Program-made: the position numbers and the translations under genes | Notes under the pieces: model-generated | What the model was told of the DNA's origin: nothing | Databases searched by the model: none | The model's input: the letters and a program-made list of their open reading frames with translations, nothing else | In this document: positions 4,071 to 40,065 of the stretch, in pieces | Position numbering within the stretch: position 1 is the first letter of the stretch | Layout: every line of letters begins with the position of its first letter | NCBI RefSeq assembly: GCF_014203395.1 | Contig: NZ_JACHIW010000002.1 | Coordinates: 744,001 to 808,000, forward strand | Direction: 5' to 3' | From: Saccharopolyspora phatthalungensis | GTDB taxonomy: Bacteria > Actinomycetota > Actinomycetes > Mycobacteriales > Pseudonocardiaceae | Length of the DNA: 64,000 nucleotides

Positions 4071-4300
4071 GCCCAGTCTCCATATCCGCACTGACTTCAG
4101 GCGCCCCTCAGCAAGATCAGGCTATGGCACCGCCGAGTGATGAGTCGAATGAAAATCCCGGGCCACCCTGCGCCGCCTCCCACGGATTTCGGCACCAGCT
4201 CCCGAGCGGTCCGGTAGCGGAACCTCAGACGCCGCAGATTCACCCGCGCGGCCGGTTGCGCGTCACTCTCATAGCGTGATCATCTGGGTACGCTACGTGA

Positions 4301-5620: not shown

Positions 5621-5854
5621 GGCTTCCTCCGGGCTGATTTCGTCCCTGAGTACCGCGCGAGCGAGTGCGTGCGAGAATGGCCGATCGTCCCCTGTGCGCT
5701 CGCTCAGGACCGCTGCGGCGGCATCCAACATGGCGCGCACGTAGCCCTTGGCGCGCTGCTTGCCTCCTGGCGCGACGCCCAGCGCGTCACCGCCGATGGC
5801 CACGGTCCGCAACATGTGCGCGTTCAGCCGCTTGATCTCCTCCAAGGCGTCCAC
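5582..5854 (-). CDS. Small hypothetical protein, 90 residues
   Basis: From GTG 5854 the protein reads as a compact, probably helical soluble polypeptide (DALEEIKRLNAHMLRTVAIG at the start, RDEISPEEALRLHAEGRDTL at the end) with normal codon bias. The frame is open to 5977, but the upstream part (RSFVAS-like, Arg/Pro-rich) is not convincing. The gene overlaps the 3' end of the XRE regulator tail-to-tail. I do not recognise the family; small helical proteins of this kind next to XRE/TPR regulators are common in actinomycetes and may be regulated with them. Confidence 0.55.
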   Translation of the reverse strand: MDALEEIKRLNAHMLRTVAIGGDALGVAPGGKQRAKGYVRAMLDAAAAVLSERTGDDRPFSHALARAVLRDEISPEEALRLHAEGRDTLL

Positions 5855-5983
5855 GCCGCCGAGCGTAGTAGAAGGCGGAAAAACCCGACTGTCACGAAAT
5901 GGGGAAAGCGGAGCCGGAAGTGACTTGCCACGAACGAGCCCCGTTCTCCCATCTCGTTCGTCAGGCACGGCGACCATCCGCCG

Positions 5984-8900: not shown

Positions 8901-9664
8901 GAAAGTTCCGCGACGATCTCGGCATGTCCGCCCTCGGCGATGACGATCTCGGCGCGTTGTTCCAGTGTCGCCAGGCGCAGTTCGGTCAGGCGTGGCCGCT
9001 GGACGCTGGCGAACGGACCGGGGATACCGGAAAGCGCCTCGCCCTTCCACAGGCGCAGGGCCGAATCCAGCGCCTCGATGGCACCGGTCGCATCCTGCCT
9101 GGCCCAGCATTGCTGGGCGCGTGACCGGTACTCCTGGAAGCGGTGCACATCGCAGGCATCCGGCGGAAGCCGCAGGCAATAGCCGGAGCTCACCGTGGTC
9201 AGGATCTGCCCGGCGTTGCGTCGGGAACGTTCCGGCTCCAGGGCACGTCGGATGTCGGAGACATACGTGTAGATGCTGCCCTCGGCGCTGGACGGCGGAG
9301 ACTCACCCCACACCGCGTCGATGAGCTGCTGCCGCGAAACCGACTGGTTCGCCGACATCGCCAGCACGGCCAGGACCGTCCGGCGATGGGCGGAGCCCAA
9401 TGCGAGCTCCTCGTTGCCCCGCCAAGCCCGCACCGGGCCGAGCAACTCAAGTGTGAGCGAGGTATCCCCAGGCGCGCTCGCCGGGATCCCCCGGGGGCCA
9501 TCCTCGATTCCTTCAGCCGGGGGCGAGAAGGACAAAACAAACCCCCCTGTACAGCGGCCGACATACGAGTATGCATGCGTGACGAAGACGGCCGGGGCCA
9601 TCGCTGCCCGCGACCACATCCCGCTGATACTCGCGCGGCAGCCCGATTCAATGTAATGAAACAC
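5984..9664 (-). CDS. Large SARP-type regulator: winged helix, BTAD, AAA ATPase, helical repeats
   Basis: At up to 1226 residues this is a large SARP. Residues 69-165 form the OmpR-like winged helix (LELLGPVRAWRG to VSSGYCLRLP), 170-320 the BTAD domain (FRETRQTLIEELGIEPA), 330-357 a Pro/Ala linker, 370-700 a STAND-type AAA domain with Walker A GEPGIGKS (399-406) and Walker B LVLVIDDLHWAD. The rest is helical/TPR-like. Unlike LAL regulators it has no C-terminal LuxR domain. Such proteins activate antibiotic or development genes, but no biosynthetic cluster is adjacent. The start is uncertain: GTG 9664 is the longest frame, while TTG 9535 follows an AGGGGGG Shine-Dalgarno at ideal spacing and trims 43 atypical residues. 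Confidence 0.88.
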   Translation of the reverse strand: MFHYIESGCRASISGMWSRAAMAPAVFVTHAYSYVGRCTGGFVLSFSPPAEGIEDGPRGIPASAPGDTSLTLELLGPVRAWRGNEELALGSAHRRTVLAVLAMSANQSVSRQQLIDAVWGESPPSSAEGSIYTYVSDIRRALEPERSRRNAGQILTTVSSGYCLRLPPDACDVHRFQEYRSRAQQCWARQDATGAIEALDSALRLWKGEALSGIPGPFASVQRPRLTELRLATLEQRAEIVIAEGGHAEIVAELSALVREHPMREALRALLMLALYRSDRKGEALAVFRETRQTLIEELGIEPASPLRNLHEQMLANDPSLARVPVRRSESTAPKAAPVDPTPSQPAPVKPAPPKLLGVESRQPSRPARFVGRSAEVSFLRDAVSDVAAGNGRAVWIEGEPGIGKSCLLAEGLAEAIASGCQVAWGVSDELGQRFTLRVLLECLGVKPDSADPRRAELASALRDRPDTSASDEDVQPVVHNLLNLVAELCADAPLVLVIDDLHWADAATLLVWQHLCRLRRELPLLLIGACRPVPVRAELDQVRANVEADATVLPLGPLPESAVHEFVSAIVGLPVSAKLRAVVKGARGNPRYVEETVNGLLREGAIVFAGGYADTDPSLDDAVPDAALSAIAGHLRFLSGQTTELLRRAALLGEQFSLAEAAIALDRPASDLIEMVDEACAAGLLMESHDLLAFRHPLVHKVFYAKMPNAVRLAMHRQLAEALAKAGAPADRVAAQLTAAPVTVDSWLIDWLLANVGVLSSNAPHSAAALLRAALNRGSISSAVREKFAAAFARLMFWLGREPASSAQFVVARTTDSLLDADMRLILAYIYYRRGGVGKALDEIRPAMRDELVPETWRSRYTPLLAALESAEFGDPGNRQAVTAQRRDSRSTPETSDRAPDAFETVPQLADLWMLALDDTMLALQDLDHVDDALGALRAAEHYATSHTLPGEISVAGVVHYYWLGLWPDALGKVSAMTLADSLTESYLLGRPGASAILHGVAALIAGHRNEQATARAHLHSAGQWSRRNPTGFLAGSDFLLMARSLLAEGQGRLEAALERRVPILTSDFAPMTHRYRWLPGVARIAAQLGDSEAMRLALEVCESEMRRDRTAAREAAAAHCRGLVNRDLGAVLTAADHYRSAGRRIELAGAEEDAAILFAERSRLDDARAALGASLSTYAELGAVWNVQQAESRLEQFGLQRLPGATARASGEAEPPGAVQDLRP

Positions 9665-11054
9665 TTACTTCACGTTCATGCCATTTTCCGGCACCGATAC
9701 CACACCCAGTGAGAAGCACTTGCCGAGCCCGCGGCGTAGAATGCATTAGGGAAACCGCTGTTTCGGAAGTGTCATAGCCGAAGCTTAGGCCCAAGTCGGG
9801 TATGCGCGCAAGTGGCGGAATGTCGTTAGCCCGGACATCCGTGGACGGACGCCATCTTTTACCGGTAACGCGTCTTGCAAATGGAGTCGGCCGGATTTGC
9901 TGGAAACTTCAACAACCGGTGGCGTATTGTACCAAGTGTCCGGTTCTTTGCCTATCGTTCCGCCTTCACGCTGGACCAACGGGGCGCTGGCGACCTCGCC
10001 CCGGACACCCGCTCCGGCGCTGGGACAAATTCGCGTCAGCAAAGTCGACTTGGCGCCGGATTCGCATTTCCGGGTCGGCGCAACCAGGCCGCAACCTTTC
10101 GGACACCAGGCGTCGACCCGGAACCCCACGGGCCGGTATCGTTCGTCCACGTGGTGGACGAACAAAATCAACATCCGCTCATTGCCCGGAATGCGCGGCC
10201 ATCGGCGCGTGCAATTCGCACGCGAACAATGCCACATATCGCGGACCCACGGAGAATTGCGTTTGAATTCACGAGCAGGCGCCGATCAATTCCGACGAGA
10301 AGAGATCCATCGCAATAGGATCGGTGCGCCCTGGGCAAGATGACCACGTGCCGCATCTTCACCCGGAAAACTCCGTACGCCGATTCGCCGGAAAGCAACG
10401 AAGGAAATTGCCGTAGGCATTCTGGAAAGGTGCGAAGATCAACGGCGAGTTCCGCTCGCAGGCCCGGCCGCAGTAGTACCGGCCGAGCACATCGCACACG
10501 GACTTGGCCGCACTTCGGACCTCGCCGAGGCGGTGGAGACGTAGCCGTCCACCGCCTCGGCGATCCCCTGACAGCCGACGCACTCCTGGCCCTTCTGCCT
10601 GGCAAAGACGTCGCAGCCCGCCCGGAGGGACGGCGGACACCGCGGACCACATCGGGGTCCGCGACGGCTCGGGGCTCCCGGGAACCGGCCCCGCCCGGAC
10701 GGTCCGCGCATGCGCGGATGTCAAGATCGGCAACGAGTCGATGCAAACAGGGACGGTTGCCGAGTGCGCTATTTTCGGGCAACCGACGAGGGGCGACGCG
10801 GTCGGCAAGATTGATCCAGCGACGAGCAGAGGGCGGATAGCTCGTCCTGGCCGAGCAAATTTTCGTTTCCCATTCGGGGATGCACAAGACAAGGGCGGAT
10901 TGTCCTTCGTGGATCAAGCCAGCACCCACAGATCGGAACCTTCGGGCAGGAAATCATGCCCGAACGACTCGTTCGCATCCACACTCCTTGCGGAAACGCA
11001 CCGGGCAAAAACTCGATCGGTGCACAATGCGCAACACCGGCCGGGCAACTTCGC
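9665..11054. other. 1.4-kb stretch without an intact gene
   Basis: The long open frames here overlap on both strands and none resembles a family over its length. GC content is visibly lower than in neighbouring genes. Two minus-strand patches have coding-like third positions: 10060-10160, with a four-Cys stretch (WCPKGCGLVAPTRKCESG), and 10360-10640, listed separately. The area also holds the promoter of the SARP gene. It looks like decayed DNA between two expressed blocks. Confidence 0.4.
10359..10640 (-). pseudogene. Possible frameshifted Cys-rich gene remnant
   Basis: On the minus strand, G/C-rich third positions run through one frame (FARQKGQECVGCQGIAEAVD, then GYVSTASA) and then continue in another (SVCDVLGRYYCGRACERNSP, then LIFAPFQNAYGNFL). 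This is what a single indel near 10510 would give. The joined reading has three CxxC/Cys clusters. No family recognised. It may be a decayed remnant or simply chance; confidence is low. Confidence 0.3.
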
Positions 11055-11309
11055 TCAAGCCCGCTGGTCGTCAGGTCCGTCCGCGAACGGGTCGTCGACC
11101 GAGGCCGTGAGGCGGTAATCGATCCGCACGTCGCGGTAGGTCACCCCGGCCGCCACGCGACGGGGAAGGCCTACTCGGTCGGCGGACGACTCGCCCTGCG
11201 CCGTGCCGAGGAATTCCACCCGAACGTCAGGTTCCGCCTGGAAGCGCAGTCGCCGCGCTCGCACGGTCGCGTGGAAGCCGATGTCGTGCGCACCGTCCGA
11301 TGAGCTCAT
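11055..11309 (-). CDS. Small hypothetical protein, second gene of a two-gene operon
   Basis: The 84-residue product begins MSSSDGAHDIGFHATVRARR and reads as a small beta-rich protein (ATVRARRLRFQAEPDVRVEF, then GVTYRDVRIDYRLTA). Its ATG overlaps the stop of the upstream repeat-rich gene by four bases (11306-11309), so the two are translationally coupled. Family unknown. Alternating charged/hydrophobic strands suggest a structural or envelope-associated partner of the upstream protein, but that is inference only. Confidence 0.55.
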   Translation of the reverse strand: MSSSDGAHDIGFHATVRARRLRFQAEPDVRVEFLGTAQGESSADRVGLPRRVAAGVTYRDVRIDYRLTASVDDPFADGPDDQRA

Positions 11310-18182: not shown

Positions 18183-19388
18183 ATGAGATATCGGATGGAC
18201 CGAAAAATTGTACGGTTATTCCCGCGACGTCCGATTCATGCGGTGGTTGCATTGGGAATCGTGGTCGGACTGAGCGCGTGCAGCCCGTCCGGCTTGCCGG
18301 GTTCGGGGGAAGAAAGACCCTCCACCCCCTCCCCTGTGGTGGACATCACGCCGGCGGCGGGCGACCAGATCAACCCCACTGCGCCGATCGTGGTTTCGGT
18401 GCGGGACGGCAGCCTCACGTCGGTCACCGTGACGAGCCCGGCCGGCCAGCAGGTGAAGGGCGCGATGGCCGACGACAAGTTGAGCTGGCGCACCACCGAG
18501 GTTCTCGGTTACGGCTCGAACTACGAGGTCACTGCCACCGTGACCGGCAAGGACGGGAAGGCCACCACGCAGCACGGCACGGTCCGCACCCTCACCCCGA
18601 AGGCGCAGGCGTATCCCAGCCTCATTCCGGCGCCGAGGGCGGGTAACGATGTCGGCGTCGGTCAGCCGATCGTCGTCCGGTTCGACCACGAGATCAAAGA
18701 CCGCGCCGCCGCCGAGAAGGGGCTGCACGTCACCGCCACGCCGGACCAGCCCGGGATGTGGTCGTGGATCTCCGCCCAAGAGGTCCACTACCGGCCGCAG
18801 CAGTACTGGAAGCCCGGAACCAAGGTGTCCGTCAAGGTCAACCTCTACGGCGTCGACCTGGGCAACGGCGTGTACGGGAAGACCGATCGCACGCTCGACT
18901 TCCAGGTGCACGACTCGTGGGTGGCCAAGGCCGATGGCAACACGGAGCAGATGCAGATCTTCCACAACGACAAGCTGGTGAACACCATGCCGATCAGCAT
19001 GGGCAAGGACATCACGCCCACGCACGTCGGCACGCACGTGATCTCGGACAAGCAGCAGAAGTACACAATGGACTCCTGCACCTACGGCGTGTGTCCCGGC
19101 AACCCGGATTACTACCGGTCGGACGAGTTCTTCGCCGAACGCATCTCCAACGACGGCGAATTCGTCCACGAAAACCCGGCCAGCACGCCCCAGCAGGGAA
19201 ACTCGAACGTCTCGCACGGATGCATCAACCTCGACCAGGCCAATGCCGCGTGGTTCTTCCAGAACTTCGGACTCGGCGACGTCGTCGAAGTAACCAACTC
19301 GGGCGGGCCCGCGCTGCCGGTCTGGGACACCTACGGGGACTGGTCGTTGTCGTGGGACAAATGGAAGGCGGGTAGCGCGCTGTCTTGA
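18183..19388 (+). CDS. L,D-transpeptidase, lipoprotein with Ig-like domains
   Basis: The enzyme forms 3-3 cross-links in peptidoglycan at the outer face of the membrane. The 401-residue protein has a signal peptide ending in the lipobox LSAC (about residues 24-27). Two Ig-like domains follow (about 50-250, with TPAAGDQINPTAPIVVSV at the start), then the YkuD catalytic domain with SHGCINLD, where Cys is the nucleophile and His the base. This is the LdtMt2-like architecture of actinomycetes. ATG 18183 is preferred over 18144 because GAGGTGAGC precedes it. The first palindromic repeat (19401-19446) follows 13 bases after the stop. Confidence 0.92.
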   Translation: MRYRMDRKIVRLFPRRPIHAVVALGIVVGLSACSPSGLPGSGEERPSTPSPVVDITPAAGDQINPTAPIVVSVRDGSLTSVTVTSPAGQQVKGAMADDKLSWRTTEVLGYGSNYEVTATVTGKDGKATTQHGTVRTLTPKAQAYPSLIPAPRAGNDVGVGQPIVVRFDHEIKDRAAAEKGLHVTATPDQPGMWSWISAQEVHYRPQQYWKPGTKVSVKVNLYGVDLGNGVYGKTDRTLDFQVHDSWVAKADGNTEQMQIFHNDKLVNTMPISMGKDITPTHVGTHVISDKQQKYTMDSCTYGVCPGNPDYYRSDEFFAERISNDGEFVHENPASTPQQGNSNVSHGCINLDQANAAWFFQNFGLGDVVEVTNSGGPALPVWDTYGDWSLSWDKWKAGSALS

Positions 19389-29360: not shown

Positions 29361-30470
29361 TCACGCCCGGCCGTAGAGGGGTGCCCGCGACGGGGGCGCC
29401 GCCGCAGCGGTCGCGGGTTGCGGGCTTGGCACGGCCTCCATGACTTCCCGGCCTCGGGCGTCGACGGCCTTGGTGAACAGGTGCTGTGCGGCTCCGAAGA
29501 TGACGGCCCAGCCGACGATCTGCGCCGACGAATCGAGGGATGACAATCCTGGTACGAAATCGGCGCGCATGAGCAGGATGCCAAGCACGGCCGTCACCGC
29601 CCCGGCCGGAAGCTTGAGGCACGCGAGTGCAAGCGGCACATTGGACGGGGTCGGGCTGCCCTTGAGCTGGCGCAGCGCGGCAGCGGCGGTAACCGCTGCC
29701 GCGACGAATCCGGCCGCTTCGATGACGGCGTAGTCGAATGACGAAGCGGCGGCCTCGAAGCTTGCGTCCCGATTCTGCTTGAACGGAGCTTCGCCAAGGG
29801 GGCACACGACTATTTGTTCCGTTAGCGGTAGCGCGTTCGGGGTGGGACCGAAGCACATCGGCAGCAGTTTCTGATTGAGGAAGGAGACGACCGCGATCGC
29901 AACGGCCATGCACAGCAGGCCGCTGGTCCAATACCACACGAGATGCGAAAAGCTGCGCTCACGAACGATTTCGCGCTCCTGGACCCAGTAGGCCTCGCGT
30001 ACGGCATCGATCACGGTCTGCTGCTGGGACGCGATAAGCCTCCCGTCCGCAGAACTCTTGAAGATCCTCTCCACGGACAACCGACGCCTGTCCTCGGGCG
30101 GCAGGGCATCCTCGATCAGCATGAGAAGGTCGGGCAGCATGCCGCGGAGATCTTCGAGCGAAACCATCCGAAGCACGAGGACGTGGGCGGCGTGGATGTG
30201 GGCGAGTGCACTGTCCACCCCGTGCGCCCGACGCGGCCACCACGTCCGGCGGAGAACTCGTTGAGCGCACTTGAGGTGCATGCGGGCACTTGCCGCCATC
30301 TTCTCGGTGCACAGCTCGTGCGGTGCGGAGCAATTCTCCGCCCATTCCACGACTGCCATCAGTTCGTCGATGCGGGCGAATGCCCTGTTCCCCCAAGGCC
30401 ATCGTCGACCGTGGACTTTTCGTGACACGGCGTCCTGATCGCTTTCCCGCGCGGCGTTCACGTCGCTCAC
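29361..30470 (-). CDS. Four-helix membrane protein coupled to a serine hydrolase
   Basis: The 369-residue protein has a charged, mostly helical cytoplasmic N-terminal half (about 1-170). Four hydrophobic segments follow: LVWYWTSGLLCMAVAIAVVS, IEAAGFVAAAVTAAAALR, VPLALACLKLPAGAVTAVLG and IVGWAVIFGAAQHLF. It has no recognised domain. GTG 30470 overlaps the upstream hydrolase stop (GTGA), so translation is coupled and the two products should act together. The frame is open to 30794 but that part is the hydrolase shadow. The pair may be a membrane-associated effector or lipid-handling unit. Confidence 0.7.
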   Translation of the reverse strand: MSDVNAARESDQDAVSRKVHGRRWPWGNRAFARIDELMAVVEWAENCSAPHELCTEKMAASARMHLKCAQRVLRRTWWPRRAHGVDSALAHIHAAHVLVLRMVSLEDLRGMLPDLLMLIEDALPPEDRRRLSVERIFKSSADGRLIASQQQTVIDAVREAYWVQEREIVRERSFSHLVWYWTSGLLCMAVAIAVVSFLNQKLLPMCFGPTPNALPLTEQIVVCPLGEAPFKQNRDASFEAAASSFDYAVIEAAGFVAAAVTAAAALRQLKGSPTPSNVPLALACLKLPAGAVTAVLGILLMRADFVPGLSSLDSSAQIVGWAVIFGAAQHLFTKAVDARGREVMEAVPSPQPATAAAAPPSRAPLYGRA

Positions 30471-31786
30471 CCGCGCGGCGATCGAGCGGCCGAGACCGCG
30501 GCCCACGCCACCTCCGGATGCCGGATGTCGCTGTGTGCCTGGGCGAACCAGGACAGGTTCCGGTTGATGACGCCGTTTGCGTCGAGGCGGTAGAACACGC
30601 CCGGCTGGAACCCGTAGTCCGTGCCCTGCTCGGCCATCGTGGCGCTCCGGACGCCGGTCTGCTGGTAGCCGTCGTGGCCCATCGCTCCCCAGCGGTAGTT
30701 GATCTGGGCCACCAACTCGGCGTCCTGCCAGGCGAGTCTGCTGGCGTTGGGATACCACCAGCCGACCGCGCGGTCGGCGTCGCTGAACGTGCACACGAGT
30801 GGGCCGTCGACCCGGTCGGCGTACTCGGCCAACACGCCGGCGCCCTCCCGCACCGGGGCTCGCGGTGCGAAGGCGAAGTGGCTGAAAGCGCCCTGCATCA
30901 GGTACAGCGACTTGACCGGACTGTTCGTACCACGCCTCTCGGGCGCGAGACCTTCGAGGGCGAACGAGACGAGTCGGGCCCCGAAGCTGTGGCCGAGCAG
31001 GTGCACACGCGCGTCATGGACGGACTGCCCGCACTGTTCGAGCAGGGGGCCGAGACCATTGCGGCCGATCACCCCGGCGCGTTCCTTCATCTCGTAGTAG
31101 CTGAGCACCCGCAATGCCTCGCGTGCCCCCTGCCACATTCGTCCGAACGGATTGAGCTCCTGCTCGCTTCCACCATTCCCGGGTGAGAGTGCGGCCATCG
31201 CGTCGAACACCCGCCCCGGCGGTGCGTTCATCACCTCCACCTCTCCCGCGTCTTCCGGGGCGTTGCTGGGTGTGGTCACGAGTCCTTTCGCCAGGCGAAA
31301 AAACTCCACGAGCCGGTCCGGGTCCTGCGGCCGCCGGTCGAGCAGGTCGCCGATCCGCTTCAGCTGCGCTTGCTGGTCCGGGAAGGCGGGGGCGAGCGCT
31401 TCCGCGAGCTCTGCGCCTGTCGACACCTCTGCGGTGGCCTGTGGGGACGCCAACGCCCCCAGAGCCCGGGGCACCGATGCCTCCGGGACCTGCGGGCCGC
31501 TGGCGGCGGGGGCGTCTTCCGGAAACAGCAACGCAGGCCACAGCACTCCGACGAACCCGGTATTCGCCCGCTGCTCCGCGGGGAGCATCCCCGCGACGAG
31601 CCCGAACATCTCCGAGTACAGGTCACGCGCGCCGGCGAAGGAACTGTTCCAGCCGTGGCTGAGCACGAAGAGCTCCCGTGCCCCCGCACTCGCGATGATC
31701 TCGGGCAGTTTTCCGCCTTGGCGGAGCATGCCCGCCTCGTCGAACTCGACTTCCCAGTACGGCACACCACCGATCTGTTGCGTCAT
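30467..31786 (-). CDS. Alpha/beta-fold serine hydrolase (lipase-like)
   Basis: The 439-residue protein has the hydrolase pattern: an early strand LFVLSHGWNSSF that supplies the oxyanion loop, and the nucleophile elbow LLGHSFGARLVSFAL, with Ser as nucleophile. Candidate Asp and His lie in the C-terminal third (TFSDADRAVGWWYP; GAMGHDGYQ). There is no signal peptide from ATG 31786, which GGAGGGGGAG precedes; the frame to 31993 is an over-extension. Cytoplasmic lipase-like proteins coupled to a membrane partner resemble effector-type phospholipase systems, but this is inference. Confidence 0.75.
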   Translation of the reverse strand: MTQQIGGVPYWEVEFDEAGMLRQGGKLPEIIASAGARELFVLSHGWNSSFAGARDLYSEMFGLVAGMLPAEQRANTGFVGVLWPALLFPEDAPAASGPQVPEASVPRALGALASPQATAEVSTGAELAEALAPAFPDQQAQLKRIGDLLDRRPQDPDRLVEFFRLAKGLVTTPSNAPEDAGEVEVMNAPPGRVFDAMAALSPGNGGSEQELNPFGRMWQGAREALRVLSYYEMKERAGVIGRNGLGPLLEQCGQSVHDARVHLLGHSFGARLVSFALEGLAPERRGTNSPVKSLYLMQGAFSHFAFAPRAPVREGAGVLAEYADRVDGPLVCTFSDADRAVGWWYPNASRLAWQDAELVAQINYRWGAMGHDGYQQTGVRSATMAEQGTDYGFQPGVFYRLDANGVINRNLSWFAQAHSDIRHPEVAWAAVSAARSPRG

Positions 31787-32144: not shown

Positions 32145-32486
32145 ATGAATGCCAGGATCTTCCTCATCGACATGCCACGCATGATGCGTGAGATCATTCA
32201 GGTCGTTGTCACGCAACGGCGCGGGATCGACATCGTTGGCAGTGCCGGAAACGCGGATAGCGCCCGACAGGTTGTACTGAGCATCAACAGCACACGAGCC
32301 GACCTGGTGGTCCTGACCACCGGGTACCACCAGCTTCCCGACCTGCTGATGCAGCTGCTCGTACAAGGTTCGCCCGTGCACCTCCTGATCATGACGGGCG
32401 ACGGCCGCGAGGCGTTCCACTGCCGCCCGCTCGGAGAGATCTCGCCGGAAGCGCTGCTCAACATCGTGGACGGGATCATGCGCTGA
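32145..32486 (+). CDS. Stand-alone receiver-like protein without an obvious phosphorylation site
   Basis: The 113-residue protein folds like a CheY receiver by pattern: IFLIDMPRMMREIIQVVVTQ for strand 1 and helix 1, ADLVVLTTG for strand 3, VHLLIMTGDG for strand 4. The position after strand 3, where the phospho-acceptor Asp belongs, reads LTT, so phosphorylation is doubtful. There is no output domain. GAGGAGG ahead of ATG 32145 is strong. It may bind and sequester another regulator such as the LuxR protein at 33848. Convergent with the nuclease gene. Confidence 0.6.
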   Translation: MNARIFLIDMPRMMREIIQVVVTQRRGIDIVGSAGNADSARQVVLSINSTRADLVVLTTGYHQLPDLLMQLLVQGSPVHLLIMTGDGREAFHCRPLGEISPEALLNIVDGIMR

Positions 32487-32507: not shown

Positions 32508-33473
32508 CTAGAGCACCAGGTTGGAGAAGTCGCTGTGTAACGGCACCCTGCCGACACGCGCTTCGAGTCCATCCGACGTCAACGGGGTTTCGTGCGTCTC
32601 CAGGTACCGGAAATCAAGGCCCGTTTGTGCTCGCAGGTGCGCCAGCGAAATGCGGTAGGTACCGGCTTCGAAGACCGCCGCGAAGGGGAGCATGTCGTCG
32701 ATCAGTCTCGTTTGGTCAAGCAGGTATGCCGAGACGCGAAGCGCACCACCGGGATCGCGGTAGCCGATGACTTTCCAGTACGCCAGGGGAAGCCGGACGC
32801 CCTTGTACAGCGGGTCGTCATCGGTCATGACCGGGCCCGTGAACACGGTTATCTTCTTGTCCGTGAGGTCGGCGTTCTCCAGGATGAAGTTCTCCAGCCC
32901 CAGCCAGAGCTCTGTTCCCTGGTTGAACTTCTCATGCTGCGGCGAACAGTTCGTGAAGTGAAACGTATCGTCGTTCGCTCGCGCCGGGTCGGCTCCCCAA
33001 ACCGGATCCAGCCGCCGCACGAGGTGCCCCCGGTCCAGCGCGTTGCGCCGGTAAAGCGACTCGCCGATCTGCTCCGATTCCGCGATGCGCGGGTCGAAGT
33101 ACCACTTGTCCGCCTGCCGGTCGAATTCGACGGTCTTAGCCCCGTCGATGTTCACCGCCGTGTAGTAGGCCAGTTGACGGCGCCGATTGACAACGATGCT
33201 GAAGTGCGTGTACGGCAGGACGGTGGGATCCTTGCCGGCGGGCGCATCATTGTTCTTCGCCGCATTGCGACGCTGTTCGTCGGAGAGTTCCGGTAACGAC
33301 AAGTCGGTCCCGAGGAATCCCGGTTCGTATCCCGTGTAACCGTCGTAATAAGAGTGCGGGCGGGCGATTTCGGCCGGCGTGTAGGCAACCTGAGCGAGCT
33401 CCGCCGTCGCCGATTCTCCTATCTCTATTGCGATGTTGAGTGGAACAGTCAGCCTGGGCTGCGGACTTTGCAT
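32508..33473 (-). CDS. DNA/RNA non-specific endonuclease (DRGH, NucA/EndoG type)
   Basis: The 321-residue protein has the beta-beta-alpha-Me signature DRGHLVRRLDPVWG with catalytic His. Further family features follow: FHFTNCSPQHEKFNQ, where Asn and Gln/Glu place the metal, and KITVFTGPV. The family cleaves DNA and RNA with little sequence preference. No signal peptide is visible from ATG 33473, so a self-toxic cytoplasmic nuclease would need control or another export route. Proximity to a NACHT NTPase and a hydrolase/membrane pair makes a defence or toxin role possible. No inhibitor gene is recognised. Confidence 0.85.
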   Translation of the reverse strand: MQSPQPRLTVPLNIAIEIGESATAELAQVAYTPAEIARPHSYYDGYTGYEPGFLGTDLSLPELSDEQRRNAAKNNDAPAGKDPTVLPYTHFSIVVNRRRQLAYYTAVNIDGAKTVEFDRQADKWYFDPRIAESEQIGESLYRRNALDRGHLVRRLDPVWGADPARANDDTFHFTNCSPQHEKFNQGTELWLGLENFILENADLTDKKITVFTGPVMTDDDPLYKGVRLPLAYWKVIGYRDPGGALRVSAYLLDQTRLIDDMLPFAAVFEAGTYRISLAHLRAQTGLDFRYLETHETPLTSDGLEARVGRVPLHSDFSNLVL

Positions 33474-33720
33474 GATCGTGCCTTTCGTTTGGTCGAGGTC
33501 GACTCGTCGAGAGCTGCCAGGCGAATTCCACCCCGGCCTGCTGGAGGACCTGGTCACCGGCAAGCCGCCACGGCGGCACGGCCTCGTTGCCCTGGAGGTA
33601 GCTACCACATCGTCGGATGGCTTCGACGGCCTCGGTATGGGCCCGACGGTTCAAATGAGGCTCAACCCAGTCGCGGACCGGGTTCACGCGCCCATCCGGT
33701 TTCACCACGAACCAACGCAC
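33247..33720 (-). other. Candidate ORF or decayed gene upstream of the nuclease
   Basis: Minus-strand codons from about 33800 to 33480 show strong G/C third-position bias and read VRWFVVKPDGRVNPVRDWVE, then AHTEAVEAIRRCGSYLQGNE and GDQVLQQAGVEFAWQLS. Yet the only start is GTG 33720 without a Shine-Dalgarno, coding-like sequence extends upstream of it, and the frame ends only inside the nuclease gene. A frameshifted or truncated gene is likelier than an intact one. No family recognised. Confidence 0.35.
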
Positions 33721-33847: not shown

Positions 33848-34549
33848 TCACGAGTGCGGGCGGTTACTCGGTGGAAGAGCCTGATGCAGCGTCGAACGAA
33901 TGAGGACGGAGTGGTCCAAGCGTTGCTGCCGGGCCCAAGCGGCGGCCGCGGCCCGCCCCTGCAATCCGAGTTTGTCCAGGATGTTGTGCACGTGGTTCTT
34001 CACGGTAGCCAAGGCGATGCACAGCTGCCGGGAGATCTCCTGATTGGACAGACCCTGCTCCAGCAGCACGGCGACCTCCGCTTCCCGACGGCTCAAGAGC
34101 CCCGCGTTCGGACCGGGCTGCACCTCTGCGGACAGCTCGGCCACCCGGCGACTCAAGGCGGCCGCCACCCTCGGCGAGCAGCGCAACTCCCCGTGGGCAA
34201 CGCTCTCGATCGTCCGAACCAGTTCAGAAATCGAATGATCCCGGGTCAGGTACCCGGCCGCGCCCAACTCGGCATATGCAATGATGTCATATTCCTGCGC
34301 AGACACCCCTAACGCGATGAGCCGCAGACCGGGATTTCTCGCGCGCAACGCGAGCACGACACTGGGACCGTCCGACAAGTCCGAAATATCAAGCAGGACC
34401 ACTCCGTGAGTGCGCGCGGCGAGATCCGGTTCGAGTTCCTCCGGCCGCGCCAGGGTCGCGATGACTTCGAAGCCGTCGGCGTTCTGGAGGGCAAGGGCCA
34501 ACCCCTCCCGATAGAACCTCGTCGCGGCAACGATAATGATCTCGATCAT
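33848..34549 (-). CDS. NarL/LuxR-family response regulator
   Basis: The 233-residue protein has an N-terminal receiver domain (IIIVAATRFYREGLALALQ; candidate phospho-acceptor Asp in VVLLDISDLSDG) and a C-terminal LuxR helix-turn-helix (LLSRREAEVAVLLEQGLSNQ, then EISRQLCIALATVKNHVHNI). The first acidic pair of the receiver is replaced by Ala-Ala (VAATRF), so it may be an atypical receiver that does not depend on a kinase; no histidine kinase is nearby. ATG 34549 has AGGGTGA upstream. Targets may include the adjacent nuclease or LysM genes. Confidence 0.85.
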   Translation of the reverse strand: MIEIIIVAATRFYREGLALALQNADGFEVIATLARPEELEPDLAARTHGVVLLDISDLSDGPSVVLALRARNPGLRLIALGVSAQEYDIIAYAELGAAGYLTRDHSISELVRTIESVAHGELRCSPRVAAALSRRVAELSAEVQPGPNAGLLSRREAEVAVLLEQGLSNQEISRQLCIALATVKNHVHNILDKLGLQGRAAAAAWARQQRLDHSVLIRSTLHQALPPSNRPHS

Positions 34550-34782
34550 GCTGAATCACCCTGGCACCGCCCCAGCGGCGCTTCGCCAAGATCCCGTTTC
34601 ACCGTCATCTGGAAGCGTCCTCCAGTTGCCAGGCGTCGCGTCGCACGGCCAGTTCAATGCCGACCCTATCAAGGCGTGACGGTGGCGGGTATGGCAAATG
34701 GTCCCGACTCTCCTGCGACTTCGCCTTTGCGAATCGCAGCAGCCCCGTGACCCCCGCGCCGAGAGGTGCCACGGACCGCTGG

Positions 34783-35006
34783 AAGGTTCAATATGGATCC
34801 GAAGGATCTAACTTGGGTTCAGTTTTTCCGCGTGGTTTCAGCAGGTTCAGCACGCTGCCGTGCTCGACCAGCAGTACGGCGGCATCGACGATGAACCCTC
34901 AATGAAGCGGACTGTTCATTGTCGCCGCACGGGCGTCGCGCATTCCATGGAAGGGGCGCTCCGAGCGATCCGGCGGGAGCGCAACCGAACAACCCGAGGA
35001 GTCTCC
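34783..35006. repeat. Leader of LysM gene 1, duplicated upstream of LysM gene 2
   Basis: This stretch and 35628-35854 are near-identical over about 220 bases, including TATGGATCCGAAGGAT, CCTCAATGAAGCGGACTG and the CGAGGAGTCTCC ribosome-binding site. On the minus strand both copies read as the C-terminal tail of some protein (SVLNLLKP followed by a stop), with coding-like third positions in the first copy. So the duplicated unit may also include the 3' end of another lost gene. Confidence 0.7.
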
Positions 35007-35348
35007 ATGACTACTGCCCCCACTAATCAATGCAACGTCTACGAGGTGCAAAGCGGCGACACGCTCTCGGAGATCGCCGAATGGTTCCACGTTAAGCAGA
35101 AGGACCTCCAGCGGATCAACCACATCAAGAATCCGGACCTCATTTACCCCGGTGACAACCTAACCCTGTCGGAGGATCACAACGTGTGCATGGTCTACAC
35201 GGTCCAGCCTGATGACAATCTCACGAAGATCTGCAGGGATCATGGCCTGAATCCTGATACGGATCCGCTGACCTTGGCGCGCTACAATCACATCAAAAAT
35301 CCGAATCTCATCCACCCGGGCGAAAAGATCTGCATTCCGCAATCGTGA
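35007..35348 (+). CDS. Double-LysM protein 1 of 3
   Basis: The 113-residue protein consists almost wholly of two LysM domains: residues 8-58 (YEVQSGDTLSEIAEWFHVKQ, then LQRINHIKNPDLIYPGDNL) and 63-112 (YTVQPDDNLTKICRDHGL, then ARYNHIKNPNLIHPGEKI). LysM binds N-acetylglucosamine-containing glycans such as peptidoglycan. No signal peptide precedes the domains, which is odd for a wall binder. ATG 35007 follows GAGGAG; the frame to 34860 is duplicated leader. First of three tandem paralogues convergent with the NACHT gene. Confidence 0.85.
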   Translation: MTTAPTNQCNVYEVQSGDTLSEIAEWFHVKQKDLQRINHIKNPDLIYPGDNLTLSEDHNVCMVYTVQPDDNLTKICRDHGLNPDTDPLTLARYNHIKNPNLIHPGEKICIPQS

Positions 35349-35423
35349 CGCACGGCAGCGGAAGGAGCGGAGTGAGTCTCCGCCCTGTGGCGCTCGGGCA
35401 CTCCGGGCATCCGCCGCACGCCG

Positions 35424-35460
35424 GAGTCGCCCTCGACGAGCCGCCCGTCGAGGGCGACTC
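35424..35460. terminator. 15-bp stem hairpin after LysM gene 1
   Basis: GAGTCGCCCTCGACG faces CGTCGAGGGCGACTC across a 7-base loop about 75 bases after the stop. The same hairpin recurs after LysM gene 2. A strong intrinsic terminator without a long T-tract. Confidence 0.75.
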
Positions 35461-35511
35461 TCGCTGAAATCCATCCTGCGGTAACCCGGTTCGGCCCTGA
35501 CGGCCCGGTCG

Positions 35512-35625
35512 ACCTCGCCGACTTCGCCCGGTCCGCGTGCTGTTTGCCCGGGGCTGAGCCAGGTCCCCGGCTTGGACGATCGTGTCGGTCTCGCGGCGGC
35601 CGAAGATCCAGGTTCGGGAGACGGC
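35512..35625 (-). pseudogene. Copy of the NACHT gene 3' end in the LysM1-LysM2 spacer (remnant 1)
   Basis: The spacer aligns with 36774-36890, the last codons of the NACHT-LRR gene, in the same orientation: GTCCGCGTGCT, TTGCCCGGGGCTGAGCCA and GGCCGAAGATCCA are shared. It has diverged by substitutions and small indels, so the reading frame is lost. It is too short to be functional and marks the boundary of a tandem duplication. Confidence 0.75.
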
Positions 35626-35854
35626 TGGAAGATTTCAATATGGATCCGAAGGATTTAATGGGGGTTCAGTGTTCTCCGTGTGGCTTCAGAAGATTCAGCA
35701 CGCTGTCACGCTCGTTCAGCCGTAGCACGGCATCGGCGATGAACCCTCAATGAAGCGGACTGTTCATTGTCGCCGCACGGGTGTCGTGCTTTTCATGGAA
35801 GGGGCGCTCCGAGCGATCCGGCGGGAGCGCGACCGAACAACCCGAGGAGTCTCC

Positions 35855-36184
35855 ATGACTACTGCCCCCACTAATCAATGCAACGTCTACGTGGTGCAAG
35901 AGGGCGACACGCTCTCGGAGATCGGCGAATGGTTCCACGTTCCGTGGCGGGAGCTGCAGCGGATCAACCACATCCAGAATCCGGACCTCATTCACCCCGG
36001 TGACAGGCTGCTCCTGTCCGAGGATCACAACGTATGCACGGTCTACACCGTGGTGAGGGGCGACACGCTCTCGGAGATCGGCGAGAAGTTCCACGTGGAT
36101 TGGCGCCCGTTGGCGCGCTACAACCACATCCGCAATCCGGATCACATCGAGGTGGGGCAAAAGATCTGCATTCCGCAATCGTGA
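35855..36184 (+). CDS. Double-LysM protein 2 of 3
   Basis: The 109-residue paralogue is nearly identical to the first in its N-terminal domain (MTTAPTNQCNVYVVQEGDTL; INHIQNPDLIHPGDRLLL). Its second domain differs: YTVVRGDTLSEIGEKFHVDW, then RYNHIRNPDHIEVGQKICIP. So the second domain here resembles the first-domain type more than that of copies 1 and 3. Same GAGGAG ribosome-binding site, same duplicated leader, no signal peptide. Binding to GlcNAc polymers is inferred from LysM. Confidence 0.85.
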   Translation: MTTAPTNQCNVYVVQEGDTLSEIGEWFHVPWRELQRINHIQNPDLIHPGDRLLLSEDHNVCTVYTVVRGDTLSEIGEKFHVDWRPLARYNHIRNPDHIEVGQKICIPQS

Positions 36185-36243
36185 CGCACCGCAACGGCGG
36201 AAACGGAGTGAGCCTGCGGCACTCGGGCACTCGCCGCAGGCCG

Positions 36244-36280
36244 GAGTCGCCCTTGACGAGCCGCCCGTCGAGGGCGACTC
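36244..36280. terminator. Hairpin after LysM gene 2
   Basis: It has the same 15-bp stem as at 35424, with one G-T pair (GAGTCGCCCTTGACG against CGTCGAGGGCGACTC) and the same 7-base loop. Likely terminator, duplicated with the gene. Confidence 0.7.
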
Positions 36281-36354
36281 CTTGTCCAGCTTGGGAGAGC
36301 GCGGCCGGTCTTGCAGCGGCTGAAGATCCAGGCCGGGAGACAGACCGCGCATGT
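36280..36354 (-). pseudogene. Copy of the NACHT gene 3' end in the LysM2-LysM3 spacer (remnant 2)
   Basis: Seventy-five bases match 36823-36898 of the NACHT gene almost exactly (CGCGGCCGGTCTTGCAGCGG, GGGAGACAGACCGCGCATGT) and run straight into the ribosome-binding site of LysM gene 3. On the minus strand it still encodes MRGLSPGLDLQPLQDRPRSP, against MRGLSPDLDLRPLQDRPRSP in the intact NACHT protein. High identity means this duplication is younger than, or corrected more recently than, remnant 1. Confidence 0.85.
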
Positions 36355-36368
36355 CGCTAGGAGTTTCC

Positions 36369-36728
36369 ATGACTACCGCCCCGACTAATGAATGCAACAC
36401 CTACGTTGTGCAAGAGGGCGACACGCTCTCGGAGATCGGCGAATGGTTCCACGTTCCGTGGCAGGAGCTCCAGCGGATCAACCACATCCAGAATCCGGAC
36501 CTCATTCACCCCGGTGACAGGCTGCTCCTGTCCGAGGATCACAACGTATGCATGGTCTATCAGGTGCAGCAAGGTGACACTCTCACGAAGATCTGTAGGG
36601 ATCACGGCCTGAATGACAAGGACGATCCGGGGAAGCTGGCCCGCTACAACCACATGCTCGACCCGAGCGTCGATCAATTAGCGGACAAGCTCTGCATTCC
36701 ACAAGAACAACCCCCAGCGGCGACATGA
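36369..36728 (+). CDS. Double-LysM protein 3 of 3
   Basis: The 119-residue protein has LysM 1 (TYVVQEGDTLSEIGEWFHVP, then INHIQNPDLIHPGDRLLL) and LysM 2 (YQVQQGDTLTKICRDHGLND, then ARYNHMLDPSVDQLADKL), plus a short C-terminal extension (EQPPAAT). ATG 36369 follows AGGAG, which here derives from the junction with the NACHT-tail copy, so its promoter region differs from copies 1 and 2. Its stop lies 23 bases from the NACHT stop, tail to tail. No signal peptide. Confidence 0.85.
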   Translation: MTTAPTNECNTYVVQEGDTLSEIGEWFHVPWQELQRINHIQNPDLIHPGDRLLLSEDHNVCMVYQVQQGDTLTKICRDHGLNDKDDPGKLARYNHMLDPSVDQLADKLCIPQEQPPAAT

Positions 36729-36750
36729 ACGGAGGGAACCTCCGCAGGAC

Positions 36751-39700
36751 TCACACCCGCTTGATCCGCACCCCCTCACCGAGCCCGCCCAGTCCGCGTG
36801 CTCGTTGCCCGGGGCTGAGCCAAATTTCCAGCTTGGGAGATCGCGGCCGGTCTTGCAGCGGCCGAAGATCCAAATCGGGAGACAGACCGCGCATGTCGAT
36901 GCGTCGCAGTCGCGGGAGACCGACGACGGGGCTGATGTCGGTGACCTCGGTCCAGTCGATGGCGAGGTCCCGCAGCTCGTTTGCCTCCCCGAGGGGCGCG
37001 AGATCGGTGACCGGGCAGTGTGCGAGCCACAGCGTGGAAATCCTTGTTCCGCGAAGCGGATTGAGGTCCGTCACCGTGGGACAGGCCGAGAGGGTGAGGA
37101 ACTCCAGTCCGGAAATGAGCGTTTCCAACGCCCCGGCACCGCCATAGAGCGGGGCGGCGTGAATGCCGAGCGTCGTCAGCCGGGACGAGCCGGTCCAACC
37201 GGACAGGTCGTTCAATGCCTCGCATCCCCAAAGCTTGACCGACGCGGCCGGCAGGCCGTTCAGCGGCGATACGTCCCGGATGTTCCGGCAGTCGCCGAAA
37301 AAGAAGTGCTCGACCTGGGCAAGGTTGCTCGCGAACTCCAGATCGCTCACCTGCCGGGAAAGCCTGATGTGGAGGCCGACCAGGTGTCGCAGCTCCCCCA
37401 GCACATCCAGACCCCGGCACGGGCTGTTCACGATCTGGAGGTACTCCAGGTTCGGGTACCGGCGCAGCGGGCTCAGGTCGAGTGCTGGGCCCTCGGGATA
37501 GATCCGCAGTTCGGTGAGGTTCGGTACCTCGCTGAGGGCGCCGAGGTCTTCGGTCCGGTCGACCCGCAGATCAAGCTTTGTTGCCCGCAGCGCCCGGAGC
37601 TTCCCGAGGTGCGGCAGGTGTTCCGATCGCTCTACGGTGATACTGCCGTACCGCAGCGGTGCGTGGGCGAGCACCTTCTTCGCGAATTCCTCGGGGTTGA
37701 AGTACTTCCATGCCTGCGCAAGTTCGAGCTGGACCTGCTCCCGTGGATCGCTCGCGTACCGCGCCAGCGTGGACAACGCCTCCGGCCCGCTGATCAGCGT
37801 AGCCGCGTGCACGCATGCCGCAGCGGCCGATTCGCTGAGGTCGTCCAGCCGGCGCGGAAGGTGGCGAAGGAGTCGTTCTCCGACGAGCGCGAGGGAGCGC
37901 GCCTCCTGCTTCCGCCGAGGCGGAAGCAGTGCGTTGAGGGCGGCTGTAGTCCGTGCGGCAACCTCCGGCGAGACCGTGTGCGCGGTGTCGAGGCAGGAGG
38001 CGCTGATCAGGCGGAGCCGACGAGCGCGCCGGGGCTCCTCGTCTGCTCTGTCGAGCATTCCGGTCAGCAACTCGTCGCGGAGCCGCGCAGTCGCATGCCC
38101 GGCGGCCATCACCACGGTCTCGCGCCACTGGTCCAGATGAGCATTGCGAATCAAGACGTCGATGAGGTGTTCCTCGGCGGCTTGTTTGGCCGCAAGGTAT
38201 TCCTGGAAGGTGCGGTGCACGAAATCGACGCGGCCGAGCCTGGGCTGGCGGAGGACACCGCTGCGCTCGACCAGGTAGCGCACGGCCGACTTGGCGTCGA
38301 GATCCAGGTTGGGCATGCGAGTGAGCGCGTAGTCGACCCGCTGGACGGCATCCTCGATCCCCAGCTCTGCCCGGCCGCACTGGGTCAGCCACCACGCGAG
38401 GTACTGGAGGAGCGCCACCTTCGACGCGACCTCCAATGCCGGATCGGTTGGTACCGCACGTTCGGCGTCACGGCGTTCGATGAGCATTTCCAGCGCGGCC
38501 GCGTAGAGCTGCATCCGGTCCGCCGGCAGATACTTGCGGCGGTCGAGGTTAAGCGCGCAGAGCATGGCGCACATCAGCGGGTTCGTGGCCAACGCCCGCA
38601 GGTGGCGCCTGGAATCCAGCTGCTGGGCCAGGCTTGCCTCGTACTCGGTCAGTTCCGCGATGGTGCACGGAAGTTCCGCGCCGTTTCGGGCGGTTTCCCG
38701 GACGGCGTCGTGCCACCTGCGGCAGAAGGCGTCGACGTCCGCCGGCGTCATCGGTTCCAGCAGCAGTGACTGGAATCCCTGGCCGTCGAGCCATCGCGCT
38801 TCCGCCGCTGCCGGGCGGGAGGTGATCACGATCTCGATCTCGGGGAAGGCCGCGACCAGTCGGGAAAGCCATCTGCGGACGGCCGCGCGGCGGCGACTCG
38901 TCAGCTCGTCCACGCCGTCGACCAACAACAGCGCCGCACCTGAGGAGAACTGCCGGTGCGCCCAGCCCGGGGGCATCTGGGCGGCGAACGGCCCCGCGCC
39001 GGCGGCGACCATGTCCTCCGGCCACGGAAGTTCCCCGTCGGCGTGCCCGCGCAGCCAGACGACGAACGGAATGGCACCGTTGCACCTGGCAAGCGAGCCG
39101 GTGAAGCCGTGCCGGGCGGCGTTGATGGCGATCCACTGAAGCAAGGTCGTCTTCCCGGATCCGGCGTCACCGCGCAGCAGCGTTCGCTTTCCCTCCCCGA
39201 GGGCCTCTTCGACCCGCAGACCGCGTTCGGACGGGATATCCCATTCCCCGCCGCGCCTGCCAGGCGGTACGTCGCGACGAGAACCGGTGACCGACAGGCT
39301 CAGGTACGCCAAGCTGACCGAAGTCCGGGGCCGAAACCGGTGGACGTCGACGCCGTAGAGCTCCAGCACGTCGAGCGTCTCGCTCAGATAGGCCAGATAG
39401 CGGTGGGTGAACTCGGCATCATGGTCGGTTCCTCGCGGCGCGTCGAGCGTGGCGCGAGGAAGACGCTCCAGCACCCGGCCGATCTGGTCCGCGGCATCGG
39501 AGACCCGGCGCAGCAGTTCGGTCAGCGCACGAGGTTCGAACGCCGGGAGCTGCTGGACGACGCTGACGATGCAGACGCAGCTCTCGTCGAGGACCCGCCG
39601 GTAGAGCAGTTCCCCGGCTTCGCTCAACCCGGCTCGGCGAGGAGCTTGGCTCATCCGCCGGCGGATGCTCCGCGCCAGCGTCATCGGGTCGACATCAGCG

Positions 39701-40065
39701 TCGAACAGCGCGTAATCGGACAGGTCGGCTTCGATCAGCGTTTCCACGACCGCGCCGAGGGCCGCCCGGCACTCGGCATCGGGTAACTTCGCTTCCCGTT
39801 CCAGCACCGGGAGCAGGCGCTGCGCCACTTGGTCACCGATCTCCTCCCACTGCCGGGCGAGCTTGCGGCGGTGGAACTGGTCCACCACGCCGACCGCGAC
39901 CAAGTCGATCAATTCCGCGTTCCGGACCTCGACGGTAGTGCGATGCCCCACCCAGGCGCGTGCCGCGTACTTGACGATCTCCTGGCCGATCCGCAGCCCC
40001 GCTTCGCTAAGCACAATCCGATCTTCTCGAACCGCCCTTCGCTTAAACAGCGCGGATCGGACCAT
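36751..40065 (-). CDS. NACHT NTPase with leucine-rich repeats (STAND, NLR-like)
   Basis: The 1104-residue protein has a helical N-terminal region (1-270) and a NACHT ATPase with Walker A GDAGSGKT (299-306) and Walker B LLLVDGVDELTS (379-390). A helical region follows with the NACHT-type motif VHRTFQEYLAAKQAAE. About ten irregular LRRs (about 800-1080; DLSPLRRYPNLEYLQIVNS, TDISPVVGLPRLRRIDM) end it. Bacterial NACHT proteins are immune sensors against phage, with LRR or other repeats as sensor. No classical effector domain is visible at the N-terminus, so the effector may be separate or new. No Shine-Dalgarno precedes ATG 40065; a leaderless mRNA is possible. Faces the three LysM genes. Confidence 0.88.
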   Translation of the reverse strand: MVRSALFKRRAVREDRIVLSEAGLRIGQEIVKYAARAWVGHRTTVEVRNAELIDLVAVGVVDQFHRRKLARQWEEIGDQVAQRLLPVLEREAKLPDAECRAALGAVVETLIEADLSDYALFDADVDPMTLARSIRRRMSQAPRRAGLSEAGELLYRRVLDESCVCIVSVVQQLPAFEPRALTELLRRVSDAADQIGRVLERLPRATLDAPRGTDHDAEFTHRYLAYLSETLDVLELYGVDVHRFRPRTSVSLAYLSLSVTGSRRDVPPGRRGGEWDIPSERGLRVEEALGEGKRTLLRGDAGSGKTTLLQWIAINAARHGFTGSLARCNGAIPFVVWLRGHADGELPWPEDMVAAGAGPFAAQMPPGWAHRQFSSGAALLLVDGVDELTSRRRAAVRRWLSRLVAAFPEIEIVITSRPAAAEARWLDGQGFQSLLLEPMTPADVDAFCRRWHDAVRETARNGAELPCTIAELTEYEASLAQQLDSRRHLRALATNPLMCAMLCALNLDRRKYLPADRMQLYAAALEMLIERRDAERAVPTDPALEVASKVALLQYLAWWLTQCGRAELGIEDAVQRVDYALTRMPNLDLDAKSAVRYLVERSGVLRQPRLGRVDFVHRTFQEYLAAKQAAEEHLIDVLIRNAHLDQWRETVVMAAGHATARLRDELLTGMLDRADEEPRRARRLRLISASCLDTAHTVSPEVAARTTAALNALLPPRRKQEARSLALVGERLLRHLPRRLDDLSESAAAACVHAATLISGPEALSTLARYASDPREQVQLELAQAWKYFNPEEFAKKVLAHAPLRYGSITVERSEHLPHLGKLRALRATKLDLRVDRTEDLGALSEVPNLTELRIYPEGPALDLSPLRRYPNLEYLQIVNSPCRGLDVLGELRHLVGLHIRLSRQVSDLEFASNLAQVEHFFFGDCRNIRDVSPLNGLPAASVKLWGCEALNDLSGWTGSSRLTTLGIHAAPLYGGAGALETLISGLEFLTLSACPTVTDLNPLRGTRISTLWLAHCPVTDLAPLGEANELRDLAIDWTEVTDISPVVGLPRLRRIDMRGLSPDLDLRPLQDRPRSPKLEIWLSPGQRARGLGGLGEGVRIKRV

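Follow-up and report, generated by a model that had tools for sequence, protein, structure and literature searches.

A tandem LysM array beside a NACHT-LRR gene in Saccharopolyspora phatthalungensis appears linked to a membrane protein and a hydrolase cassette

The 64,000-nt window of the Saccharopolyspora phatthalungensis genome analyzed here (NCBI RefSeq assembly GCF_014203395.1, contig NZ_JACHIW010000002.1, positions 744,001 to 808,000, forward strand) carries three double-LysM genes in a row, facing the 3′ end of a NACHT-LRR gene that encodes a bacterial NLR-like STAND NTPase (Table 1). Do these LysM proteins work with the putative immune sensor next door, as the original prediction proposed, or with other genes? 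Comparing the loci of relatives, we show that the LysM gene goes with a gene for a membrane protein, F01, within a cassette that related species have kept together as a block, and does not go with the NACHT gene. F01 is, judging by sequence, the tightest link of the LysM gene. The reading that we prefer, and hold to be moderately probable, is that the array forms the wall-binding part of this hydrolase cassette, which would be an actinobacterial variant of the NucA-peptidase conflict systems termed System 3 (Kaur et al., 2020, eLife, PMC7159879). Below, loci carry L-numbers, genomes G-numbers and gene families F-numbers.

We looked for the LysM-NACHT pair from both sides, by genus and order-wide searches and by inspection of individual loci. 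The searches listed 46 NACHT places outside the window, of which 39 were examined; 37 places were read with mostly 1.5 kb of flanking DNA, and 26 wide loci of 12-19 kb added 2 further places. At none of the 39 did a six-frame search turn up LysM in the DNA covered, and this holds for five loci (L199, L201, L204, L211 and L046) at which NACHT was uncalled and which are missing from our listing of NACHT neighbors. From the LysM side, six-frame searches found no NACHT relative at any of nine loci in 8 other genomes (~19.5 kb each), one of which (L041, the second locus of G015) carries a tandem LysM pair. Among the 22 genomes of the genus, NACHT relatives occurred in 9 (3 of them partial matches) and LysM at E ≤ 1e-20 in 8, and the overlap of 3 is at chance level (Fisher p = 1); a looser LysM cut-off gave 12 genomes, 4 of them with NACHT (p = 0.67). 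Across the 397 genomes of the order, where the NACHT search scored only the two best candidates per genome, LysM matches were found in 7 genomes and NACHT in 32. Both were present only in G000 and G033, and in G033 they lie ~4.2 Mb apart. We therefore rejected a conserved LysM-NACHT system, and the proposal that the pair has been kept under selection is not supported: relatives hold LysM genes, even in tandem, without a NACHT neighbor.

The NACHT gene often appears to occupy a chromosomal site of its own, since 11 of the 21 wide loci at which that gene was called share an identical set of flanking gene families around it, at a site unlike that of the window. In the titles and abstract starts listed by our literature searches, a scope outside which most subscription papers fell, we found no LysM-NACHT or LysM-F01 system described, and the term LysM does not occur in the main text of PMC8195603 or PMC10907252. 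The NACHT gene is best read as a strain-specific neighbor whose tail hitchhiked with LysM. Attention thus shifts from a striking, probably accidental neighbor to a gene association that can be found repeatedly.

Within the genus, an F01 profile matched 8 of the 22 genomes, the identical set that LysM3 matched at E ≤ 1e-20. The chance of identical sets is 3.1e-6, a value without correction for phylogeny, and match coordinates place F01 no more than 8 kb from LysM in all eight genomes. The LysM cut-off of 1e-20 was picked after the list had been seen; at the search's own cut-off of 1e-10, LysM matched 12 of the 22 genomes, which contain all 8 with F01 (p = 0.0015). The four genomes left out at 1e-20 (G014, G016, G019 and G020; E ~1e-11 to 8e-11, in longer frames of 278-315 amino acids (aa)) have no F01, and the match covers about one LysM domain in G014, G019 and G020 and residues 7-87 in G016.

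The F01 family has at least 920 proteins at E ≤ 1e-20. Among the best 120 of these at least 920, none has a Pfam domain and nearly all are named hypothetical protein; their record names include Saccharopolyspora, Streptomyces, Embleya and Kitasatospora, along with the myxobacteria Archangium, Hyalangium and Stigmatella. F01 was present in 25 of 394 class genomes (that of the window included) and in 28 of 199 genomes of the genus of G578. In its predicted model, the N-terminal half is helical and a long helix would lead into the membrane; besides a loop carrying two invariant cysteines there are more hydrophobic helices, and the hydrophobic helices number three to four.

Outside the genus of the window, 49 F01 matches were listed, and we examined 40 of these loci (20 of 24 rows from the class search and 20 of 25 further rows from the genus of G578). 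By six-frame search, 8 of the 40 (L134, L139, L140, L141, L144, L181, L182 and L183) have LysM no more than 1 kb from F01. At the 36 loci where F01 was called as a gene (the gene caller missed it at the other 4, which were left out), LysM was encoded by 6 of the 71 genes directly adjoining F01 vs. 0 of 392 others (p = 1.1e-5), a result that is independent of the cut-offs chosen for LysM and NucA. At 5 further loci (L143 and L145-L148), a PG_binding/CHAP-type protein lies next to F01; this assignment comes from Pfam for L143 and L148 and from similarity for L145-L147, a match to the PG_binding/CHAP profile being circular in that the profile was built from these same proteins. Co-occurrence in 8 of 22 genus genomes and adjacency at 8 of 40 loci elsewhere argue for a LysM-F01 module that recurs in independent genomes.

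F01 also has an M14 carboxypeptidase among its neighbors at L134, a patatin at L143 and, at L138, a weakly papain-like protein, which is encoded 5′ of F01, is distinct from the F05 family described below and scores 19.1 bits for Peptidase_C1, below the curated cut-off of 20.7. The LysM proteins beside F01 in L134, L140, L141 and L181-L183 share a C-terminal WQRKLGF...DADG.PG..SW, which we take to be of a peptidoglycan-binding type; Pfam scans of L134 and L140 gave LysM families only. At L188 and L189, two PG_binding/CHAP-like genes stand in tandem (~8700-10100), three to four genes from F01, and a NucA gene lies 8-12 kb from F01 in these genomes.

The nuclease and trypsin families of System 3 also turned up near F01. 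At L129, genes for a trypsin (697 aa), a NucA nuclease (627 aa) and F01 follow one another in a row, and relatives of all three are present at L187. Among the 199 genomes, which both the F01 and the NucA search are assumed to cover, 5 of the 8 with a long, 61-100% identical NucA match carry F01 (p = 0.0016), a set that leaves out 16 of the 24 matching genomes for lower identity or short pieces. Match coordinates place F01 and NucA within ~13 kb of each other in G578, G905, G936 and G893. The link of F01 to wall-binding proteins and to the NucA-trypsin pair offers a first testable role for this family.

Clustering the genes of the window with those of the nine LysM loci of relatives revealed the larger block to which F01 belongs: F02, F06, F04, F05, F03 and F01, then LysM, with F11 or F12 peptidases in some loci. 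Most of the block, with its order kept, is found in L033, L034, L036 and L038, and parts of it in L035, L039 and L037. By genome, F02, F04, F03 and F01 lie beside LysM in G006, G005, G015 and G018, as they do in the window, and parts do so in G011, G013 and G003. F03 occurs in 5 of the 22 genus genomes, always within the cassette. The window's own F03 gave no Pfam match at E 0.001, and its DUF900-like character comes from the L033 orthologue (DUF900, 8.9e-5). F06 is longer in L033, L034 and L036, three of the four fullest relatives, and Pfam, run with the L033 copy, gave Trypsin_2 at 4.2e-16. In F04, the DRGH motif is invariant in all six aligned rows, and homology puts the start nearer 33473. 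The F05 proteins of relatives are, by motif, presumably papain-like peptidases; the copies from L033 and L036 matched nothing in Pfam, and the L033 copy nothing in NCBIfam. F11 is leishmanolysin-like (L034 and L038), and F12 is an M4 peptidase (L035 and L040). F07, in the window, reads like a lone receiver domain. By a crude hydropathy scan, the N-terminal 15-residue stretches of 11 cassette proteins all stayed at or below 1.37, which is low for a signal peptide. Compared with these relatives, the window's cassette seems to have lost parts while its LysM gene multiplied.

How, then, did NACHT sequence enter the array? A self-comparison of positions 34500-37300, combined with repeat finding, shows the array to be a tandem repeat, the repeated unit running, by alignment, from ~220 bp 5′ of the LysM gene into the last ~125 bp of the convergent NACHT-LRR gene. 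Units 1 and 2 are 81% identical over 691 columns at an offset of ~848 bp, and units 2 and 3 are 75% identical over 551 columns. Upstream region, LysM gene, strong hairpin and NACHT tail follow one another in units 1 and 2, and the hairpins are likely transcription terminators. Unit 3 has neither upstream region nor hairpin and begins ~12 bases 5′ of LysM3, right behind the second NACHT fragment. The original prediction had placed copies of the NACHT 3′ end in the spacers after LysM1 and LysM2, and its coordinates were correct within a few bases. In this dot-plot-type check, both matches are significant (Table 1; the E-value for spacer 1 was computed against the whole window), and the two spacers are 79% identical to each other over 57 columns. 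Read in the NACHT frame, spacer 2 gives LQPLQDRPRSPKLD against LRPLQDRPRSPKLE in the NACHT gene. The view that the NACHT tail is part of the repeated unit also stands, with upstream region and hairpin now added to that unit. All three double-LysM genes face the NACHT gene, as proposed, but only LysM3 adjoins the intact gene directly tail-to-tail. By Pfam, every one of the three proteins carries a pair of LysM stretches. LysM1 has no hydrophobic N-terminal stretch by hydropathy, and the start codon of LysM2 is the ATG at 35855.

Table 1. Positions of the LysM array, the NACHT gene and the cassette genes in the 64,000-nt window.
Feature	Positions	Strand	Basis and remarks
Upstream region of unit 1, ~220 bp	34787-35006	+	Copied in unit 2, absent from unit 3
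LysM1, double LysM, 113 aa	35007-35348	+	PF01476, 2 stretches, 1.1e-26; hydropathy; alignment
Hairpin 3′ of LysM1	35423-35460	+	Fold -36.4 kcal/mol
NACHT 3′-end copy, spacer 1	35513-35622	-	vs. 36774-36883, 111 columns, 80%, E 2.5e-22
Upstream region of unit 2	35634-35854	+	~88-89% identity to unit 1 counterpart
LysM2, double LysM, 109 aa	35855-36184	+	PF01476, 4.7e-29; alignment; tree
Hairpin 3′ of LysM2	36244-36281	+	Fold -36.4 kcal/mol
NACHT 3′-end copy, spacer 2	36285-36356	-	vs. 36827-36898, 72 bp, 93%, E 1.5e-26
LysM3, double LysM, 119 aa	36369-36728	+	Pfam, alignment, dN/dS, tree
NNH1-NACHT-LRR protein, 1104 aa, bacterial NLR-like STAND NTPase	36751-40065	-	NNH1 8.3e-51, NACHT 1e-20, LRR_4 1.8e-8
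F02, LuxR-type response regulator, divergent from LysM1	33848-34549	-	Near LysM at 6 of 9 relatives' LysM loci
F06 remnant, last 40 aa of trypsin-like peptidase	33520-33639	-	tblastn 60%, 1.8e-9
F04, NucA-type DNA/RNA non-specific endonuclease	32508-33608	-	PF01223 4.8e-44 (window 32511-33608)
F07, 113-aa protein	32145-32486	+	Relatives in L035 and L036; no Pfam match
F03, alpha/beta hydrolase	30467-31786	-	Reading frame open to 31993
F01, membrane protein	29361-30350	-	Start near 30350 by homology

The history of the array can be read in part from these copies. The duplication most likely arose within the present lineage, since the three LysM copies form one clade against 19 other sequences (support 99/99). 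Because the repeated unit contains the NACHT 3′ end, the NACHT gene most likely already adjoined the LysM gene at that time. Both NACHT fragments stop near the same NACHT position (~36883-36890 and 36898), and these near-identical ends fit a single original tandem duplication that broke within the last part of the NACHT gene; homologous recombination would then have produced the second. Unit 3 apparently lost both its promoter region and its terminator at a later stage. The NACHT fragments themselves are most likely mere passengers, copied by accident along with LysM; a tandem duplication can carry a fragment of a neighboring immune gene and so mimic functional linkage. Of the three copies, LysM2 has the shortest branch, and its second domain resembles those of relatives. 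LysM3 is a mosaic whose first half lies near LysM2 (nonsynonymous rate dN 0.029, synonymous rate dS 0.107) and whose second half is of the insertion-bearing LysM1 type. We also considered diversifying selection on the LysM copies. Whole-gene dN/dS ratios were 0.84, 0.53 and 0.56, and half-gene values ranged from 0.27 to 1.02 on few changes per half, without a clear sign of such selection, which sequences this short would not exclude. The suggestion that LysM variants have been selected in a NACHT context is thus not borne out by these ratios.

According to the main text of its description, System 3 combines NucA, trypsin-like and further peptidase genes in one operon in multicellular hosts, where a proteolytic cascade is proposed to deploy NucA; an EAD1 adaptor is found in a subset, and certain operons include a STAND NTPase fused to a Death-like domain and trypsin (Kaur et al., 2020). 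The systems are reported mostly in alphaproteobacteria, and LysM does not appear in that main text. A NucA-type (Endonuclease_NS) gene is present in the window, and peptidoglycan-directed domains are common to System 3 and the cassette. What sets the cassette apart from that main text is its conserved membrane protein F01, together with the LuxR-type regulator, the alpha/beta hydrolase and LysM domains on proteins of their own. The trypsin-like gene of the operon survives in the window as the 40-aa remnant and is found in the relatives L033, L034, L036 and L129. Nor does the window's NACHT protein match the STAND-Death-trypsin fusion of that text: Pfam gave NNH1, NACHT, LRR_4 and a weak NPHP3_N and no trypsin, the Death-like domain having no profile of its own.

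Two further comparisons place the array and its neighbor. Like bacterial NACHT (bNACHT) proteins, the window's NACHT protein has an N-terminal helical NNH1 domain, a central NACHT and C-terminal LRRs, but it matched no PADLOC family at E 0.001 and is not a conserved partner of LysM. The array proteins, with two LysM domains each, resemble stand-alone spore or wall LysM proteins (SafA type, LysM_OapA); they differ in that all 11 NCBIfam matches of LysM3 fall below the cut-offs and in their link to F01. Their near relatives also appear to be few: of 18 LysM candidates scored, 12 proteins matched at E ≤ 1e-15, and 3 of these are the window's own. Elsewhere in the window (18336-19388), a 350-aa gene is 78% identical to a gene beside the NACHT relative of G006 (L047, 7631-8746).

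Because its enzymes have no recognizable signal peptides and are accompanied by a regulator and a protease-nuclease core, we interpret the block as a cassette for cell death or conflict. Signals of stress or infection would act through the LuxR-type regulator to raise cassette expression, a protease step would activate or release the enzymes, and the nuclease and hydrolases would then destroy DNA and membrane, whether of the cell itself or of an intruder. The LysM proteins, also without a recognizable signal peptide, would contact peptidoglycan only upon release or envelope breach, and would dock the products to it once the envelope is open; alignment shows one invariant and one nearly invariant cysteine in them. 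F01 would be the membrane-side partner of LysM. A bolder reading, for which we see perhaps a slim chance, is that F01 works together with a small peptidoglycan-binding protein (LysM or PG_binding/CHAP) as a breach detector, a so far undescribed module of membrane and wall in multicellular bacteria. A phage or neighbor that opened the wall would let the binding protein meet peptidoglycan, upon which F01 would release or activate local nuclease, protease and lipase effectors.

Several observations weigh against the assignment to System 3 and the pairing with F01. The pairing is not universal, as 27 of the 40 F01 loci have neither a nearby LysM nor an adjoining PG_binding/CHAP-type gene, and the counts are not independent, because several positive loci come from close relatives that share their flanking genes. 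Three of the eight genomes with long NucA matches do not have F01, and when all 24 genomes that match NucA at E 1e-25 are counted, 6 of them carry F01, which is no significant overlap (p = 0.097). Comparison of F01 with solved structures gave no clear match, which makes its role guesswork. Of the trypsin-like gene that is central to System 3, the window keeps only the 40-aa remnant, and the F05 proteins of relatives gave no match; with F06 so reduced and F05 unmatched, the window's copy of the cassette may be decaying. Finally, in three genomes of one other genus (L194-L196, ~7300-11200), a NACHT relative is convergent with a NucA-type nuclease gene, which may leave some room for a link between NACHT and the cassette.

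The main competitor, which we consider unlikely though less so than the others, is that these are saprophytic or predatory enzymes and wall-binding proteins freed at hyphal lysis and unrelated to conflict or defense. A nuclease, a lipase-like hydrolase and peptidases are indeed activities of use in scavenging, wall binding is a general property of LysM domains, record names place F01 in myxobacteria too, and the two LysM cysteines are invariant or nearly so. However, N-terminal hydropathy as low as that of the 11 cassette proteins, crude as the measure is, would be unusual for scavenging enzymes, and presence in 8 of 22 species of one genus is patchy. The least probable of the readings makes LysM and F01 accessory parts of contractile injection systems, or their cargo. 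It comes from L037 (G003, 400-8958), where a double-LysM gene and F01 lie directly 3′ of gp25, Baseplate_J, Tail_P2_I and spike OB domain genes. Of the nine LysM loci outside the window, only this one showed the arrangement: clustering placed no relatives of the injection-type genes at the other eight, and the L037 baseplate and spike profiles found no match within four genes of F01 at the 36 loci from other genera.

Hardly more probable is a strain-specific LysM-NACHT defense pair, in which LysM or the muropeptides bound to it would serve as trigger, target or effector of the NACHT-LRR protein and amplification would widen sensing. The direct convergent adjacency, the probable presence of NACHT at the LysM duplication and the tripartite NLR layout of the protein are what one would look for in such a pair, as is NACHT beside NucA in L194-L196; System 3 operons, too, sometimes contain a STAND NTPase, by the main text cited above (PMC7159879). 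Against this stand the counts of 0 of 39 NACHT places with LysM and 0 of 9 LysM loci with NACHT, the independent distribution in the genus at either cut-off and the site, unlike that of the window, shared by 11 of 21 wide NACHT loci. The genes are moreover convergent and not co-transcribed, and diversifying selection left no clear sign. We thus retain the cassette reading for the array.

The remaining LysM loci of relatives add some variants. L040, in another genus (G033), combines a LysM gene with an M4 peptidase and an F03 relative at 32% identity, and at L035 a gene for an emfourin-type inhibitor (6542-6874) lies near one for a protealysin-like M4 peptidase (8146-9216), with LysM and F01 nearby. 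L041 has its two LysM genes and no other members of the block. A second LysM type is present at L041 (9181-9945) and at L040 (9503-9835). The L041 gene at 9580-9945, in tandem with another LysM gene, has a very near copy in another genus, and because the branch lengths are only 0.041 and 0.017, the tree points to a recent transfer of this LysM type between genera.

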